Positions 30,601 to 52,100 of a stretch of 64,000 nt of DNA are shown here, one piece after another. The stretch lies in the NCBI RefSeq assembly GCF_052324685.1, contig NC_135219.1, positions 22,357,758 through 22,421,757 on the forward strand, given 5' to 3'. Positions within the stretch are counted from its first letter, which is position 1. Every line of letters begins with the position of its first letter. Source of the DNA: Brachyhypopomus gauderio. Lineage: Eukaryota; Chordata; Actinopteri; Gymnotiformes; Hypopomidae. The notes under the pieces were generated by a model. It worked only from the letters and a program-made list of their open reading frames with translations, was not told the DNA's origin and ran no database searches. The position numbers and the translations under genes were made by a program.

Positions 30601-34240
<3,640 letters not shown>

Positions 34241-34281: not shown

Positions 34282-35348
34282 TTACTTATTGGTGTTATGG
34301 AGGACTGTATCAATTCTTAGTTGTTATTATTAGTAGGTTTTCAGAATCTGTAAATTCTGTTTTTCTATACCAGTTGTATGTTAATTGTGATATCTTTGAA
34401 GCAATGCTAAGTGGATTGTGTTCATTTGGAGGAAAACACATATTCATAATAGTGAACGAGAGAATGTTGGTGAACAGGGTCTGAGAGAATCTACGCCAGC
34501 GTTCTGTCGAATCCTTCTTTAATATTCATTTACACTGCAGTGTTGGGAATAACATTTCCTTCTTTGTGTTGTGTAAAATGCATTGATTCTGAATACGAAC
34601 AACACGCCCTCAGTCTTACAATAGCTGCTTTGTGAGTACAGATCGCTCCTGCAGTGAACCTCTTTCGACGTGAAGTGTGAATCTGAAACGTGAGCGTGAG
34701 CTCGGCTCCTGCCGCGTGCTTCAACACCTCCCACTCTCCACCTCCGCTCGGAGTCAAGATGAGAGTCCGTGCCTGCCACAGAGAAGCAGGCAGCAGACAG
34801 GGATCTGGGAGGGGCAAAATGCTGTCATGGCCGACTAAAGAGAAGATGAGAACATGTAGTAAGTTAATTAGGAGGGCAAAGGTTACGTTGTTGTCTCTTC
34901 CCCCCGAACTTCAGTCATTGTGTTATTTAATGTAAAAACTAAAGGTTGTTTTAAAGCAACAGTACCTTTAGACCTCACACATTCCACTTCCTGTAAATGT
35001 GACTATAGTCTAATCCTGCAATATTGAACGTTCATTGTACTGATTGATTGTTCAGGGTCACATTGTGTCTGTACCATGCACTGTAAAGCTGTAAAGAAAT
35101 GCTCTGTATACTGGTCTCCAGGTGAAATATACAGCTAGTAGAACTGATCCCAAAACTGTAGACTTGCCTTAGACTACACAGTCACCATGTGCCAAAAGGC
35201 TGAACTAGCCATGTGCTTCCTGTAGATAACCTTTGCAAACTACCGAATGCTGTATAATCCTGTAATATCTATCGGGTATGCTGGTGTATTGCTTAAAATT
35301 ACAAGGGACAACATGTTTACATATCTAATATCATCTGTATATCTCCTC

Positions 35349-35358
35349 AATAAATAAA
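35349..35358 (+). terminator. polyadenylation signals of acat2
   Basis: Two overlapping AATAAA hexamers about 1.1 kb after the acat2 stop codon. Nothing else in between competes as clearly. Confidence 0.55.
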
Positions 35359-35752
35359 GAATGGCATAACGCTTTGGTGACTGTAATTTATAAATTACAC
35401 TGCATTGCCTGTCCAAGCGCTAGTTTACAAAGAGTAGTCAGTAGATGCCGCCAAACTACATGAAATCGATTTGAACTCACTGAATGACAGTCATAAACGT
35501 CTATTTAAATATGTAAATGTATGTATGCATGTATATTTAAGGACAAAAGAGCATGATTCGGTTTTTCATTTTTGTTCAATATATAGCAATAAAAAGCGAA
35601 AAAAAGAGTCTTGCTACGTCCCTGAGAGCGATGGTCCCCAGGAGAATGTGTGTAATCGGATTATGCTCTTGGGATTAAAATAACTAGCGTTAGTCTGCCG
35701 AGGAAATTAGCTACCGGTCGAGTGAGACTTCTTTCGCACCTCGAATTGCGAA

Positions 35753-37655
35753 ATGCAACTTTTTAGTAGCAGAGACCAGATTTTTGCCCATCATATGCAC
35801 CTTCTAGACCAGGGGTAATCAATTAAATCCATTAAAGTCCATTTTTGGCAGATAGCTCAGACCTTAGGTCCGGGTCCGCGGTGTGGAACGAAAGTTGTTG
35901 AGCGGGGGGGGGGGATTTTCACTCGTCTGAAAATAAATTCTCCGGTTTAAAATATAGTCTCCCGTTAAAAAAAAAATTGGCATTTGGGTCCGTATCCAGT
36001 TAATCAGGAATGTGATTGGGTCCGGACAGGACGGCGTTCGGGTCCGGATCCGGACCGCGGTCCGCCATTTGGTGATACCTGTTCTAGACCTTAAACTAAA
36101 CTTAGGGTAAGTGACTTTCGGCAAGAGCTGCGGAGATGAAGGTAGATTCGTTACTCCAGTGGATAGTTAAATAATGTCTTTATTTAAACGTTTAATCATT
36201 AATTAAACTAATTAACATTAATTCATGAATCATTAATCATAATTCACGTCTGGGCATTTGTGTGTTAATTTATGAACTATTTGTTGTAAACAGAGTAAAG
36301 AGGACCGGATTTTGGAACTGCAGACAGAGAACGCTCTTCTACACCTAAGACTTGCTGAGGTAAAATCAGTAAATTGCCTAAATACATTTTAAAACAGCCA
36401 AAGTTGGGATGGTTTCAGGTCATAATAAAGCCCTTGTACTACTATAACATAATAACGTACTGAGATTTGAAATAATATTTGGAGAGTTTATTAGTGAATA
36501 GTGACTAAAGTTCCACCTTTAATATCTAAACCTTTAACACTGGTCAGGACAGCTGCTGCGTAGAATATTAACATAGGTAGATATTTGCTCTAAGGGGTTG
36601 ACCCCAGACTACAGGTGGTGGGTGTACATTTTAATCCCGAGTGATATCAAACTGATTTAGAGGTCAGAAACACGTTTACGTTTCCTCAAAATATCGAACA
36701 CCAGACATTTTGAGAGTTAAATGTGTTTGACACTTCCAAATAAAAGGTTTCAGCGTGAGCTATTTTAACTGAACAGTCATTGACAGACTTTCTTAATTCG
36801 CTCAAGTGTACGAGGCGACCTCGGCGGGATGAAGAAGCGGAGATCTGGACTAAATGGCGCTCGTGCCCCCGTTGCCAGCCTCCTCTCGTCAGTGCAGGTT
36901 AGGCCACAAAAACGACAACCATCCTGCATGTGGCCGTTACTCTCGGTCGTGATGGCTTGTATGTGAAGGCGTTTCCTACACACAAGCCCTCACAACCGAG
37001 ATGAATGTAATTATTCCAATGCCGTGTTCAGTCCCTGAAACAGGATCTGAAGGATATTAGCACTCTGTATGCCTTCTTCGCCACCGAGCTGGAGAGGCTG
37101 AGGAAGCAGGTGTTGCTATGTGTGACCGCTGCCAGCAGGGGCGCCCGAGGGCCGCAGAGTGATGATGCTCATAGTGAGTGTTATTAAACGTTGAATTATT
37201 TATGTAGCTCCATCTCACCAACCTATACCTTCTTTATCTACAAATGGGGTTTATAATAGCGCAAATAATACATTAAGCACAGAACAACAATGTTTGGGCC
37301 ATTTATTCTGAATATACAGTACAGTTTGTTGTTTCATTTGATTTAAGGGTCCATGGTAAGGTTATTTGATTTGATTGTTCAAGACCCTGGACCCTGGAAT
37401 GACCTGTTTCCTTCTCTATAGCTGTCTATCTGAAATCTCTCATTTTTATCTCTGTCCTCGCTGTCTTTCCTTCTGCCCTCCACTCTTTCACTCTGCCTCT
37501 CAAATGTGCAGTCAGTGTGGTGTTGTGACAGTAAGGAAGTTTCAGAGCTAATCCCCCCCAGCCATGATAGAGCTGTTCTCGGCAAGGTCGTGTGTCTGGT
37601 GTGTCACCTGGTTCCATGATGACACATCTCCCACTGCATCTTAGCATTTGTCACC

Positions 37656-37690
<35 letters not shown>

Positions 37691-38776
37691 GTCAGGAATG
37701 ACCTTGTTCTATTACTGAAATGTACTTATAACTTAATTTTCATTCAAATTCAGTTTCATGATTCGACATCGCAGGTCGTTGGGTCATTGGGTTAAGTTTT
37801 TGTTTTTCCTGGATGCGGTCGTGCAGTTTCAGATCACTGCAGAGCCTCATGTGTCTTATGTAATACACACCTTCACTCAGATCCGCACAGCCCAGCGTGG
37901 TATTACATGACAGATCTGTCAGTCATGGAAATCTAACCTCAAACTCGTATCTGACACTGAGGCAGACGAGCGCAGATCTCTGATCGAAGTTGTGTTGGAG
38001 AAATTCCTCTGCGTTTTTTTATCCGATCAGGTCTCAACACAGACAATTAGGTTTAGAGTGCATAGTGTTTTTCATATTAATGTAGCGAGTATAGGTCCGG
38101 TCAATCCTAACTTATGGTAACTGTGACAGTAGCCATAAACAATGACAAGTGCCGAAGATCCATGTCGCTCCTGCAAGATGGTTCAGCACGCGGCAAGTTT
38201 ATGTTGTTTATGCTGTTTGCAGTGCTCCAGGCTCGGCTGGCCGCTCTGGAGAACTCCCTACAGGAGGAGAAGGAGCGATGTAGAGCCGAACGGATGAGGA
38301 GGAGACTGCTTCACAACACTCTGGTTGTGAGTGCCTGAGTTTCTAAAGGATTTTTTTTTATTGTGTTACATAACACATAATTATATCACAGTTAATGCAT
38401 TAATAAATTATACATAGTACAAAATTGGCTTACACAGAATCTATTACCTGTGGGGTAGATTTTGTTTTCCTGTAGTTACTGTGAACACATTTTTATTTTA
38501 AATACTGTTGTTGAAATAATACACTTGACAGTTTTGTCCATCTGACAGTGTCGTTGACCGGTTATGATTGAAGTTGCGTTTACGTAGGGCCTTTGAAAAT
38601 ACCCAAATATGCTTTACAATTAACACACACACGCACGTTTTTTATCCGGTCACACACACTGGGTAGAAGCAGCAGTCAGTTGCACACAGCGTACTCTCAA
38701 CCGGAAACCTTAGCCCCCTGGGGCACTGAATCAGGGGCAGGGAGGGGAGAGAGGACAACACCTAGGACACCATCCA

Positions 38777-38827
<51 letters not shown>

Positions 38828-40613
38828 TCTTCATCATGCTGACATCCTTGTTCCAGGAGTTGAGGGGTAATATCCGCGTGCACTGCAGAATGCGGCCTGT
38901 CCTTCCTTTAGACCTCAGCCCTGACCCCTCACCAGGCGGCCAGTAAGAGCCACCGTGAAGCATTTATTCATGGATATATGTCAATGGACATCGCAAAGCT
39001 AACATATATCTTGAATCTTGTTTTGCTGATCAAGGTCCACATCATCAGACGTAGTGGTTCAAGCTTGCAGTGATGTGAGTTGATTCTTCTAGTTTTTATG
39101 GCCTCTGTGAATGTACCAGGTCCCATAAAGGTCTGCTTCATGATCTGACCCTGTGGTGTGGCTGTGTTTTCAGGACTCCGTTCTTGTGAACTGTGCAAAG
39201 CCTGGGTGTGCAGTGGTGGATAAGGTGTTTGAGTTTGAGAGGTATTGTGAGGCTGCGTCAGGTGCGGGATATTTAATACCTTATGTGTAAAGACACTACG
39301 GACAACAGAAGACATGCACTGCATTGATGCCAAGTCTGGGTTTTACTGTGCATCGCCATGCCATGCTGGGTGTTTGGCAGGGTCCATGGTCCAGAGGACT
39401 CCCAGGAGGCTGTGTTTGAAGAAGTGAAGCCCCTATTAACCTCTCTCTTAGATGGGTAAGCACTCTTTTGGATACATTTTCGATGAGCAGCCGGACGAAG
39501 CCGCACAGACCTCCTTCCAGGTAACCCTGGCAACGCCTCTCACCTAGCTAGGAAGATTTCACCGACGACGGTTGCCTTTCCTGGTGATGAGCCGTGCTGT
39601 GGCTCGTGTCCAGGTACAACGTGTGCGTCATGGCATATGGGCAAACAGGTAGTGGGAAGACGTACACGATGATCGGAGCCCAGTCCGAGGACCCTGCCGA
39701 CCGTGAACCTCATTCCCAGCACGGCATCATCCCCAAAGCAGCAACCGAGTTATTCAAGTAAGCCTCGATGACCACATGGTTGACATCATCTTGTGAGGCC
39801 AAGAAAAATGGAAGGAGGGGGTTGCAGTCATGGCCTCAGAGACCTCCAGCTGGAACCTTTTTAAAAATATTCAGTTACAGCTGTAGCCGTAGGCACAATT
39901 TATTATTGTAATATGATTCCAGTTAGAACGTACTTTAAATGCGTGCTGCTACCGTTTATTTGCAAGGCTGATCTCGGAAAAGCCAGCAGAGAGTCACGCG
40001 GTGGAGGTTTCTGTCATGGAGGTTTATAATAACAACTTGCTGGACCTCTTGGCTAAAGATGAGGAAGGAGAGTCTGTGGGGAAGAAAAGAGAAGTCGTCA
40101 CCAGCAGCTGTGGAACTGAAGTGCCCAGCCTGACCTACGAGTGAGACTGCCACCTCACAACATCCACTCAGCCCTTAGGCAGCATGTCATTACCTTGCCT
40201 TAGCCCTTAGGGCTTTTTTTAAGGTTTGTGCTGTCATGTTTGACATTCGATGCTGGTTAGTATTATGCCTGAGTGGTCATGGATGAGATGGTTTTACATT
40301 TTATTGGCTGTGCCTCATGCTGAGACTATTGATTTTTGCCGCTTATCTTTTTGTGCATTGGACCTTAGTAGGCTGTGTTGTCGTTTAACTCAGGGTGTGT
40401 GTGTGTGTGTGTTTACGGGTGTGCACGTGCGTGCATGTCTGTGTCAGGTCAGTTCACAGCTCTGCAGAGGTGATGCGGCTGGTCAGTGCAGCGTTGAGAC
40501 TGAGGGCTCACTGCTCCACACTGGTGCACACAGACTCATCCAGATCCCACCTCATTGTCATGCTCACCGTCACCTCCAAAAGTCCTCCTGCTCTGGACCT
40601 GGGTATGAGGGGT

Positions 40614-40650
<37 letters not shown>

Positions 40651-42053
40651 AAAAGAATCACTGTCCTACAGCTAGGCTGAACCGAGATACATATACACTC
40701 ACTCATGGTCGTCTTAAGGCATAATCTCTTCTCATATTCTCAGCTAACCTCACACATACACATATACCTCAGCAGCCACAGCGTCCTGGCACAGACAGTG
40801 AAATTGGCTGCACTTTTCACATTCAGTGTGAAAGAAGCTCTTATCTATCTCATGCACAAAGTTAAGGCTCTCCAGTAAGCTCCAATACCTTATCTGGGAT
40901 AGCACACACTTTAACAGTCTTTCTGGTTCCTGTTCTCACACACCCAGCTATTATTTATCTGTACATTTGCACACAGACAGTAATTTATCGGTCTCCACTG
41001 TTAATATATAAAAAAAAAAACGTTTTATGCACCATTCCAAAAGACATTTATACTGTAGCTCACGGAGCAGGAGTGTGAGTGTCTTCCACGGCTGTAGCGG
41101 TGTGTCTCTTCACTTAACGTGCCGCTCCGTGTCCCCCAGCTCACAGGCTGCAGAGTACCAGGCGCGGTACCAGAGTACTTCAGCACATGCCGCGGAGGGA
41201 GTGGTGGAGCCCGCGATGCCGCAGGAAAGGCTCCTCCCTGTCCTCTAGCTCCGCCTCCTCCCCATACAACCCCCCCTGCCACTCACCAGGCCCCTCCCCC
41301 CGGCCCAGCGTCTCTCAGGCGGCCCTCAGAACCAGACTGCAGCTGGTGGACCTGGCTGGCAGTGAGAGCGTGGGTACGCATGGACGTAAACAGACATTCC
41401 ATTCTTAGCTACACGCCAGTTATGTCCAATAGTAGAAAGTCTAACCTGTCTAGAAGTGCGCAAGAACAGCCTGTGGCTCAAACATACCTAGAATGTGTGA
41501 CTGGGTCTGTCCTCCAGACGTGTGTGGAGTGAGAGGCGGCCCGGCTCTGTGGGAGAGCTCCTGTATAAACCGCAGCCTGTCGGCGCTGGCTGATGCTCTG
41601 GGAGCTGTGGCAGAAAACCGTACCCACGTCCCCTACCGCAACAGCAAGCTCACACACCTTCTGCAGGACTCCATAGGTGAACACACACCGTCGAACACAA
41701 GACGTGTATCGCATGCCCGCGTGCATATGTGCACACGAAACACATTGAACGGTGCATGCGGTTTTTCCAAATTATGAATAAAAAAGTTTCTATAATAGAC
41801 TGTGGTGTGTTAAACTGCACAACACCAGCCTGTACTGACGCCACTGTGATGAAGTCGTGTTTCTTAGTGAAGGGATTATCTGTTTCCCTCCTGTCCTGCA
41901 GGGGGAGATGCGAAGCTCCTGGTGATGCTGTGCGTGTCTCCCACCCAGCGCTTCCTCACTGAGTCTCTGCAGACTCTGGGCTTTGGCCCCAGAGCAAGAC
42001 AGGTCCAGAGAGATCCCCCGCGCAGGAAGAACACCACTCTAAACAGGAAGTAA
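35753..42053 (+). CDS. kif25: kinesin KIF25, first coding exon interrupted by a MITE
   Basis: A kinesin-14-like microtubule motor. Human KIF25 is linked to centrosome positioning. Coding parts: exon 1 35753-35809 plus 36090-36106 (split by a MITE), then 36296-36359, 37032-37173, 38223-38326, 38857-38942, 39035-39074 (40-nt microexon), 39174-39241, 39381-39455, 39614-39757, 39967-40140, 40448-40602, 41140-41373, 41518-41676 and 41902-42053. Without the MITE the frame would be 556 codons plus stop. A coiled-coil neck ([20 protein letters not shown]) leads to [14 protein letters not shown], the kinesin-14 neck/motor join. The motor has P-loop [10 protein letters not shown], switch I DSSRSH, switch II DLAGSE and [15 protein letters not shown]. 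The exon 2 acceptor (CAGAG) was chosen by phase. With the MITE unspliced, the first exon stops after 20 codons, so the allele may be damaged or may rely on another start or splice. Confidence 0.87.
35802..36089. mobile_element. hAT-like MITE (272 bp) with 8-bp target duplication
   Basis: The element spans 35810-36081 between direct copies of TTCTAGAC (35802-35809 and 36082-36089). Its ends CAGGGGTAATCAA and TTGGTGATACCTG are imperfect inverted repeats (9 of 13 positions) of hAT type. The interior is GC-rich near both ends with GGTCCGGGTCC words and a perfect palindrome GTCCGGATCCGGAC (36042-36055). It contains no open frame. It lies within coding sequence of kif25. Confidence 0.88.
37657..37688. 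repeat. (CA)n microsatellite
   Basis: CA run in a kif25 intron. Confidence 0.95.
38779..38824. repeat. (CA)n microsatellite
   Basis: CA run ending about 30 nt before the acceptor of the kif25 exon at 38857. Confidence 0.95.
40617..40649. repeat. (CA)n microsatellite
   Basis: CA run just after the donor of the kif25 exon ending at 40602. Confidence 0.95.
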
Positions 42054-43874: not shown

Positions 43875-45311
43875 CCTGAAAAACAACCCCACACCATAAT
43901 ACCCCCTCTGCCAAATTTTACACTTGGCACAATGCAGCCAGACAAGTACCGCCAAACCCAGACTCATCCATCAGATTGCCAGATGGAGATGCGTGATTCG
44001 TCACTCCAGAGAACAAGCCTCCACTGCTATAGAGTCCAGTGGTGGCATGCTTTACACCACTGCATCTGACTCTTTGCATTGCACTTGGTGATGTATGACT
44101 TGGAGGCAGCTGCTCAACCATGGAAACCCATTCCATGAAGCTCTCTGCACACTGTTCTTGAGCTAATCTGAAGGCCACATGAAGTTTGGACGTCTGTAGT
44201 GATTGATTCTGCAGAAAGTTGGCGACCACTATGCACTTGAGCATTGACTGACCCCACTCGTCAGTTTACGTGGCCTACTACTTTGTGGCTGAGTTGCTGT
44301 CATTCCCAAACACCTCCATTTTCTTATAATAGAGCTGACAGTTAACTGTGGAATATTTAGGAGCGAGGGAATTTCACGACTGGATCTGTTGCACAGAGCA
44401 ACCCATTCTTTCATTTTGTAAAAACAGTCTGCATGCATAGGTGCTTAATTTTATACACCTTTGGCCATGGAAGTGATTGGAACACCTGATTCCGATAATT
44501 TGGATGGGTGAGTGAATACTTTTGGCAATATATTGTATATTGAAATAAAATATGTTAATAGAAATTCAAGCTTCTAAAGTCAAGCAAAATTCAGTAATAC
44601 AATTTTTTACGCTCTACCATAAGTTGTCTTTGTCCACCTGAAGTAGACTATCATCAACTAATAGTCCATGAATCTCATCTTCCATTCTTTCCAGTTGTCT
44701 CCAACTATAACAAAATGGAGACGTCTCCATTAGCATATGCGAAAGATAGTAACAGCTCAGTAGAACCAGGATAGCATTGAATAACAGTCTTTGATGTAGG
44801 TTTTTCAGTGTGTACATGTCCTCTCTGTATCAGAGGCGAAAGTGGAGATGACTGCGCCTGTGACGTGCCTGATAAACCCTGGAGAAGGACCAAGCAGTGA
44901 GAGCTCCTTTACTGTCTCCTTCTACGTCCCCGAGGAGCAGCAGGCCGACCCGCCCAAGCCCAGCACCCCTGAGTTGTTCGTAGAGAGCAGGCAGGAGTTT
45001 ACAGTATTTGTGAGGTATTGCTCAGATGGTCATAAATGGGCCTGACCATTCATTGCGATTTAGATCTTCATTTGCACAAACACTCCACATGTTTTCCACC
45101 ACTTTGATGTTTTTGCTGTAGGACCTTTGGTGGTTTTGCCAACGCGGAGAACACGAGAGAGGAGCTTCTGAAGCTGAGTGAGAGCCTGAAGAGGGACGGG
45201 ATGTCCTTCAAGGAGGTGCCCTACTACCGAGTAGGCTACGACAGCCCTTTCAAACTGATCAACCGCAAGAATGAAGTCTGGCTTTTCAAGCAGGAGGAGG
45301 GGAAGGAGTAA
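43295..45311 (+). CDS. hebp2: SOUL/heme-binding protein, closest to HEBP2
   Basis: A member of the SOUL family of small heme- or tetrapyrrole-associated proteins; mammalian HEBP2 is tied to mitochondrial permeability. Four coding exons: 43295-43369, 43475-43610, 44834-45014 and 45122-45311, giving 193 residues with matching phases. Family features are [15 protein letters not shown] near the N-terminus, [21 protein letters not shown] (a strong SOUL signature), [14 protein letters not shown] and [20 protein letters not shown] near the end. A 5' non-coding exon probably ends at 43021. Fish have several SOUL paralogues, so orthology to hebp2 rests mainly on adjacency to nhsl1, as in human. Intron 2 carries a truncated Tc1 element. 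The AATAAA at 45953 is a likely end signal. Confidence 0.85.
43824..43872. repeat. (TA)n microsatellite
   Basis: TA run at the broken end of the Tc1 element in hebp2-like intron 2. Confidence 0.95.
43873..44536 (-). mobile_element. truncated Tc1/mariner transposon
   Basis: Read on the minus strand it begins with a Tc1-type terminal sequence (TTGCCAAAAGTATTCACTCA, near 44535). Transposase pieces follow: [20 protein letters not shown] (helix-turn-helix part, 44229-44438), then the part around [10 protein letters not shown] and a frameshifted GGGG.MVWG region near 43890. The C-terminal part of the transposase and the far terminal repeat are missing. Stops and frameshifts make it inactive. The break lies at the (TA)n run. 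Confidence 0.9.
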
Positions 45312-49161: not shown

Positions 49162-52100
49162 CTAACTGCTCTCCTCTTCATGTAAAGTGCTGCGGGAGTC
49201 CAGAGGGGCCGCAAGAGGCGTGGCTACTGGGAAAAGAGGGCGTGGCTCATCCCAGCCCTCCCCGCTCTCAGCCAGCTCCCCCTCCCTTTCACAGATGACG
49301 GTCATGGGGCTGCTGAGGATCCGGCTGCGGGCGTTATACTTGCTGCTGGCAGCCGAGGGCGGCGTGCGTGAGCGGCCGTACTTGGGCCCCACCAGCGAGG
49401 AAGGGGACATGGGCGCCGGGGAGCCCAGCGAGTACCGGGAGGGCAGCACGCCCTCGCTCCGGGCCCAGTCCTCTGGCGCCCTCTTGCTGCGACTGGGGGA
49501 AGCGCAGGGGCTGTCGGGGCTGCTCGCGGGCGAGCCCGGGTCCAGCGGGGAGTCGAGGGAGCGGGCCCTCTGGAAGCGTGGGTCCGTGGAGCGCAGCATC
49601 TCGGCGGCCGACATGCGGAAGCTGGTCTCCGAGCGGCTGCCCTTCCTCAGCAGCAGGGCCTTGAAGTTGTCGCTGCTGGTGGCCGTCTTGCGCAGGCTGC
49701 GCTGGATGGAGCCCGACGGCCGGGGCAGGGAGGAGCTGAGGGCGGGGCTGAGGGTGGGGGTGGGGGTGGGGCCCATCCCTGTGGGCGTGGCTGGGGGAGA
49801 GGAGGAGTGGCTTCGAGACCGGTCCTCCTCAGAATCCTTTCGTCCCAGGACCTTCCGCTTAGATCTGTAGAGAGGAAGGTAGAGAAGGTAGTGAGTGAGT
49901 GAGTGTGTGTGAGTGTGTGTCTGGGTCTGCTTTCGCAGGGATGGTTAAAAGGCAGGAGGCAAGTGAAACGTTTATTTTTTAAGTAAAAAAAAAAAAAGCC
50001 TTTTTTCTCTTAAAGGAATGGGACACTTTAAATACAAAAGCAAATAGCATCTTAAAGCCAGCTCTCTGTTCTTAGTGCATTGGCTTATACATGCATTAGT
50101 TTTGTAGCGGGTACCATGGAGGACACATTCTCTACCCATAGTCCTCAGCTAAGCCTGCTTCAGGCCCCTCCCCCCCAGGCTCAACAGACTCAAAGAGTTC
50201 ACTTTGTGATTATTGTTTCAGATGAGCCACCACCCTCTATCAATTTCTCTGCCATTTTTACCTGAGTAACCCAGGAGAGGAGTCCATGCTGCAGGTACAT
50301 CGGAAAAGTAGGAATAACTTAATAGCACTAGATATCAGTGGCAGGTGAAGCACAGACTGCACTCGAGTCTTTTATTCAAATGCAGTCACTTAGAAGCCAA
50401 TGGAAAGGTGAAAACTGCATGGTTTGCGGTTTTGAGGGCTGCTCCTAACGCCAGCACAGGAACGGTGGAATTAATCAACAAAGCCAAGAGGGAAAAGTGC
50501 CCAAAAAGCATTTTAAATGCGACGGCGCACTTCCTCACCCCGCCAGCAGGGGCGCAGGAGGTCCGCTCTGGCCGTCCAATGGCTTCTCTGAGAAATCGCA
50601 TTCATTAGCACTGCGTCACCGCTGCAGATTACTGGAGTGAGGGATTAGCGAGTGAAGAGAGCAGAAACGTATCCCTGCACTGGGATTACGGGGCTAATCC
50701 CGCCCAAGCGTCACAGCATGAGGGAAAGCACCAACGGAAAATTACTTGCCAGAGCGCACCTGGCGTGCTGGGGGGAGGTCCCGCCCCGGGGGGCGTGGCT
50801 GTACGGCGGAGCCCGAAGGAGAACGGGAGGGAGAGAACGACAGACACGAGAGAGAAGGATGCGCTCAAGAGACATTGTAGAATCAACCAATCACAGAAGA
50901 GAAAAACTTGGACCACAAGCAGACAGGACACGAGAGGCTGGAGGACAGGCAGATATGGAGCCGATCGCTTCTATCAGATCCTACGCTTAATCCGACTGGG
51001 ATTACGGCAGCGGAGAAATCAAACTAATTAAAAGGATATGATTAGCAAACTGGAAAAACAACAACGCATAAAATTTCATCTCAATAAAATTACTTAATTA
51101 AAGATAAAACTGAAAACACGAATTCTGAATACACGTAACATAAGGCTAGGTATAACACCTCATCAATGTTGACTTCTATTTCAAGGTTAACAACATTTCA
51201 CTGTTATACTGTTTCTGGGTGAAAGCGCACACACACTCACACTCTCACACACATTCACAGTAGCAGAAAGAACAAATGTCTCGATTGAAATAGTGTGACA
51301 TGGCGTTGATCTTATTTTCCCCCCCTTTCTTTCAAAAAGCTGTTCCCTGCAACAGAGCCAAGAGTGCATTTCTATGGTATGGGAGTGTGGTTACTAATTC
51401 AAAATGGCTGTGAAAGTTTGCGTATATATTTGCACGTGTGCATGCTAAACATATCCAGCATGTGTACCCGGATCGCTAAGCTAAGACCCATCTGACCCTG
51501 TAGCCTCTGGCAATAAGGACGGGGGTGTTGTGCTCCTGAATAATGAATGGCTGAAGGAGGTTTCCTCTCGTGCTTGGCAGCTGCACAACTGGAGGAAGCC
51601 CAGGACACCGTCCCCGTCGGAGACATCCTGGACTAGCCTGTCCCCCTCCGCCTGCTCCGCGCTCCCACTTTGATGGATTTGTCCGAGAGCGGAGAAGACG
51701 GCCTGCTTTAAAGTTACGATAGGACAGGCGAGGGGGCTTAAGGATGGGGGGGGGGGGGGGGGGGGGGCAGGATGGGAGGCACATGAGGAGGAGGAGGAGG
51801 TGGTGCTGAGAGCCAAGGGGAGGAGTACCTGTGAATGGCTGCGAAGAGGTCCTCAGTGGTGCGGGGGCGTGTGGGCGTCACCATGTCCCTGAAGGCGTCG
51901 CCGTTCACGCTGGGTGCCGGCGAGGAGCCTGCCGTGCTGGGCTCGAACACCTCACCTGAGGGACACACAGCAGTGTTACACACACACACCTCACCTGAGG
52001 GACACACAGCAGTGTTACACACACACACCTCACCTGAGGAACACACAGCGGTGTTACACACACACACACCTCACCTGAGGGACACACGGCAGTGTTACAC

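Follow-up and report, generated by a model that had tools for sequence, protein, structure and literature searches.

Selection usually purges transposons from coding exons. Where a gene is otherwise open, an element in its first exon therefore points to a dispensable N-terminus, to a segregating broken allele, or to rescue by splicing or downstream initiation. Typical traces of hAT elements are a CAGGGGT-type start, CAGGG-like ends and an 8-bp duplication of the target. Their target sites are given as nTnnnnAn or nnnTAnnn (PMC10512250). For maize, Ds elements located in exons are on record as being spliced as introns, in papers cited by PMC3260210, and Gozashti and colleagues recorded introners in 5% of species, with no vertebrate pattern of introner gain reported (PMC9860276). 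Here we describe a hAT-like insertion in the probable first exon of a kinesin-14-like gene, found in a 64-kb window (the whole stretch of DNA that was analysed). The insertion is itself ordinary in kind, and the reading-frame argument originally attached to it holds in part.

Results

The inserted element measures 272 bp and is flanked by perfect 8-bp copies of TTCTAGAC, a sequence compatible with both hAT target patterns. Its termini are CAGGGGT (5') and ACCTG (3'); it opens with CAGGGGTAATCA and closes with GGTGATACCTG. When the window was scanned for CAGG...CCTG footprints 100 to 600 bp long and bordered by perfect 8-bp repeats, this element was the sole match, and 200 first-order simulated windows yielded three such footprints in total, which places the observed one above chance. 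A second scan that admitted more kinds of termini (80-1500 bp, perfect repeats) again returned this element alone. The insertion is genuine. The element is likely a hAT-type MITE, as its target site duplication (TSD), start and length suggest. At 272 bp it is too short for a transposase, and the longest reading frame across it, on the - strand with 100 codons, extends past its edge. We stop at "likely" and leave the family unassigned because the two ends match poorly (a partial and gapped alignment of CAGGGGTAATCA with CAGGTATCACCA), no inverted repeat of at least 12 was reported, and no second copy was found within the 64-kb window. The element's patterns had no match in viral contigs or prokaryote genomes, but fish DNA would not be anticipated in such collections and these negatives carry little weight. 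Its predicted RNA fold was unremarkable (z = -1.34), with 23 of 200 shuffled sequences folding equally well.

With the element removed, a 15-exon model spanning 35753-42053, whose exon borders were picked by hand, encodes 593 residues with every frame open and GT/AG borders throughout. The joined protein matched the Pfam kinesin motor (3.5e-80) and Microtub_bd (3.1e-36) domains, and its closest solved relatives, among the 60 listed of 156 matches, were KIFC3, KIFC1, Kar3 and Ncd. The modelled gene thus carries a kinesin motor with kinesin-14 affinity and is likely kif25, a name that we take from the original prediction. Vertebrate Kif25 N-termini are presumed to resemble the peptide encoded at 35753-35809. 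Short Kif25-like peptides had no match in paper texts, and no relatives of the joined protein were found in the viral contigs or prokaryote genomes, where fish DNA is likewise not expected. Exon 13 (41140-41373) contributes a long Ser/Pro-rich stretch within the motor, and alignment with KIFC3 sets model residues 403 to 476 opposite KIFC3 residues 216 to 225. Upstream of the gene lie thiolase pieces (31811-33309; Thiolase_N over the cut-off, Thiolase_C under it), and downstream are pieces of a SOUL heme-binding domain (44800-45308) and an NHS-like protein (49165-49944, - strand). Frames on the - strand at 43921-44444 are presumably Tc1-like transposase-like; the piece tested, 43921-44265, had no Pfam match. 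The features of the locus are listed in Table 1.

Table 1. Coordinates of the insertion, the presumed first exon and the modelled host gene within the 64-kb window.
Feature	Positions	Strand	Basis
Phase-0 first-exon candidate	ATG 35525 to 35648		Scan
Start of presumed kif25 coding exon 1, 19 residues	35753-35809	+	Open frame; start context -1.2; presumed Kif25 likeness
TSD, left copy TTCTAGAC	35802-35809	+	Sequence
Probable hAT-type non-autonomous element, 272 bp	35810-36081	+	TSDs, ends, footprint scans
Candidate donor at element edge (GGG then GTAATC), score -0.1	35815-35816	+	Splice scoring
TAA closing the 21-codon frame, inside the element	35816-35818	+	Sequence
TSD, right copy TTCTAGAC	36082-36089	+	Sequence
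Remaining part of exon 1 (presumed), LKLNL and two further bases	36090-36106	+	Sequence
Strong donor GTAAGT, score 6.4	36107-36108	+	Splice scoring
Phase-0 first-exon candidate	ATG 36136 to 36142		Scan
Exon 2, with alternative acceptors CAG (phase 0, exon from 36294) or GAG (phase 2, exon from 36296)	36294-36359	+	Scoring, enumeration
Exon 3, containing ATG 36829 (possible alternative start; residue 61 of joined model)	36787-36897	+	Model, start scores
Exons 4-15 (coiled coil, kinesin motor), introns included	37032-42053	+	Gene model, Pfam, solved relatives

When the element is retained, the frame from ATG 35753 ends after 21 codons. Past the right TSD copy it resumes as LKLNL up to the donor at 36107. 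Splice and start scores were computed from textbook base frequencies, and they are uncalibrated and serve only to rank sites; on this scale donor 36107 ranked first of the 38 GT sites between 35753 and 36309, with the 13 other donors of the model at -0.4 to 4.0. A score above all 13 supports a real exon end at this position. As to the original prediction of a hAT-like MITE in the first coding exon, the 8-bp TSDs, the above-chance footprint and donor 36107 support an insertion of this type, with a potential start codon on one side and a strong donor on the other. Both the stop within the element and the continuation to the donor can be read directly, and exons 2-15 proved open with GT/AG borders, as had been stated, within the hand-chosen limits.

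The same prediction held that removal of the element brings exon 1 back to the phase that exon 2 requires. With a length of 74 nt, joined exon 1 ends in phase 2. At the exon 2 border, tandem AGs (ACAGAG, 36290-36296) determine the reading frame. The CAG acceptor at 36294 scored -0.7 and the GAG acceptor at 36296 scored -8.0, lower than all 13 other modelled acceptors, which ranged from -3.4 to 8.0 and comprised 11 CAG, two AAG and no GAG. Spliced to 36294, joined exon 1 runs into a stop inside exon 2. Among the one-intron routes enumerated for the empty site, the single in-frame solution joined 36107 to 36296, and no two-intron route that passed the score limits was in frame. The claim of a restored phase thus stands only by way of the GAG acceptor and fails by way of the usual-type CAG acceptor, which gives the wrong frame. 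Exon 1 is therefore misassigned, or had already lost its frame, or relies on a poor acceptor. A possible frameshift in exon 3 was rejected: acceptor 36787 leaves the reading unbroken, even though its score (-3.4) is the lowest of the 13 acceptors modelled outside the exon 2 border.

This phase clash with the usual-type acceptor speaks for one alternative, namely that 35753-36106 belongs to the 5' UTR or to no exon at all, that the normal start lies elsewhere (e.g., at 36829) and that the protein is unaffected by the insertion. The weak start context at 35753 would fit as well, and open runs of 24 codons are probably frequent by chance. Set against this are the strong and correctly placed donor, the promoter-like CpG-rich sequence immediately upstream and the presumed similarity to Kif25, and on balance we consider a misassigned exon unlikely. 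We also scanned 34300-36289 for other first exons (donor score of at least 1.5 and an open ATG). Eight candidates were obtained, two of them in phase 0 (Table 1), and none was recognised as Kif25. An ATG-led frame at 34759-34859 (MRVRACHREAGSRQ...) reaches a GTAAGT donor in phase 1; it is a possible upstream exon that is mismatched to both exon 2 acceptors.

A second alternative is that a functional exon 1 has been disrupted by an insertion that is recent or still segregating, in which case the empty allele would give a full-length protein through GAG 36296 and this haplotype would be a loss-of-function or reduced allele. The strong donor and the existence of an in-frame route at the empty site are in line with it. 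So are the identical TSD copies and the CpG content of the element, which is not depleted (1.15 of expectation vs 0.50 for the window). However, the flank directly upstream (35500-35749) is also CpG-high at 1.25, so that a young insertion is no more than a possibility. The broken-exon explanation also needs the GAG acceptor two bases past the CAG acceptor, a type used by none of the 13 others, and we regard it as rather unlikely.

We then consider how an element-retaining transcript would be translated. Just three ATGs precede 36829 in the modelled transcript: 35753, 35795 in frame with it, and 36010, where a TGA comes directly afterwards; ATG 36829 is the next one in the motor frame. Its start context scored 0.7 vs -1.2 for ATG 35753. 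Our preferred reading, to which we give a probability of roughly 0.45, is that the insertion turns codons 1-21 into an upstream ORF, that the motor is initiated at ATG 36829 and that the coding role of exon 1 may be dispensable. In this tentative scheme, a non-autonomous hAT-type element would have inserted by cut-and-paste into the presumed first exon of kif25, duplicating TTCTAGAC and leaving the footprint observed. The first frame of element-retaining transcripts would be the 21-codon upstream ORF, and translation of the motor would start at the exon 3 ATG, 396 nt past the TAA. The predicted product is a 533-residue protein lacking the first 60 residues and keeping the motor and the sequence just ahead of it. 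The coding role of exon 1 may have been dispensable even before the insertion, since at the empty site, too, the poor GAG acceptor is the sole in-frame connection to exon 2. Against initiation at ATG 36829 stands the presumed likeness of vertebrate Kif25 N-termini to the exon 1 peptide, which would make exon 1 important. The strong donor at 36107 also means that exon 1 is probably in the mRNA, and the allele may be disrupted or a segregating null.

Finally, the element could be treated as an intron, with donor 35815 spliced to exon 2 either in one step or via a small exon derived from the element, altering the N-terminus in frame. The score of this donor (-0.1) falls inside the gene's own donor range (-0.4 to 4.0), the score limits admit nine in-frame routes that use it, four of them ending at the CAG acceptor, and splicing of exonic Ds elements as introns is on record in papers cited by PMC3260210. 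When the whole element was randomised, however, an in-frame route arose in 272 of 300 inserts and one with the CAG acceptor in 246 of 300. A CAG route with an element-side exon of at least 30 nt (or one intron) occurred in 229 of 300 fully random inserts, and in 149 of 300 when the first nine element bases were kept and the rest randomised; the route with a 1-nt exon (35815-36106/36107-36294) is present in every insert keeping those nine bases. Since random inserts yield such routes as often, the routes are no evidence for splicing and carry no weight by themselves. Moreover, the exons demanded by the four CAG routes are 1, 4, 34 or 64 nt long, the two longer ones relying on weak second donors, and the direct route requires the GAG acceptor. 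Treatment of the element as an intron is thus improbable. The further idea that the element acts as an incipient intron, or lengthens an existing one, so that a splice site in its left end would replace the native donor, bring exon 1 into frame with exon 2 and rewrite the Kif25 N-terminus while leaving the motor unharmed, had a low probability from the start; the random-insert control lowered it, and we hold it to be highly improbable.

Discussion

Initiation at ATG 36829 behind an upstream ORF, the reading we prefer, would leave the motor intact. Like KIF25, a kinesin-14-like motor and the likely identity of the gene, the modelled protein has a C-terminal kinesin motor with a coiled-coil-like stretch ahead of it. 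With hAT non-autonomous elements and MITEs, the insertion shares an 8-bp TSD fitting nTnnnnAn, the CAGGGGT start and a length of 272 bp without room for a transposase; it differs from them in that its ends pair poorly and the 64-kb window holds one copy. Introners (PMC9860276) are likewise DNA-transposon-like elements with a TSD inside a gene, whereas the present evidence is one insertion, seen in a single copy and known from its sequence, and that study reports no pattern of gain for vertebrates. The maize Ds elements are similar in being exonic hAT elements whose end carries a candidate donor. Here, by contrast, the candidate routes occur at chance level and are deduced from DNA letters, and the host is animal-like. 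If rescue were true, this locus would parallel maize Ds splicing in a vertebrate-like setting.
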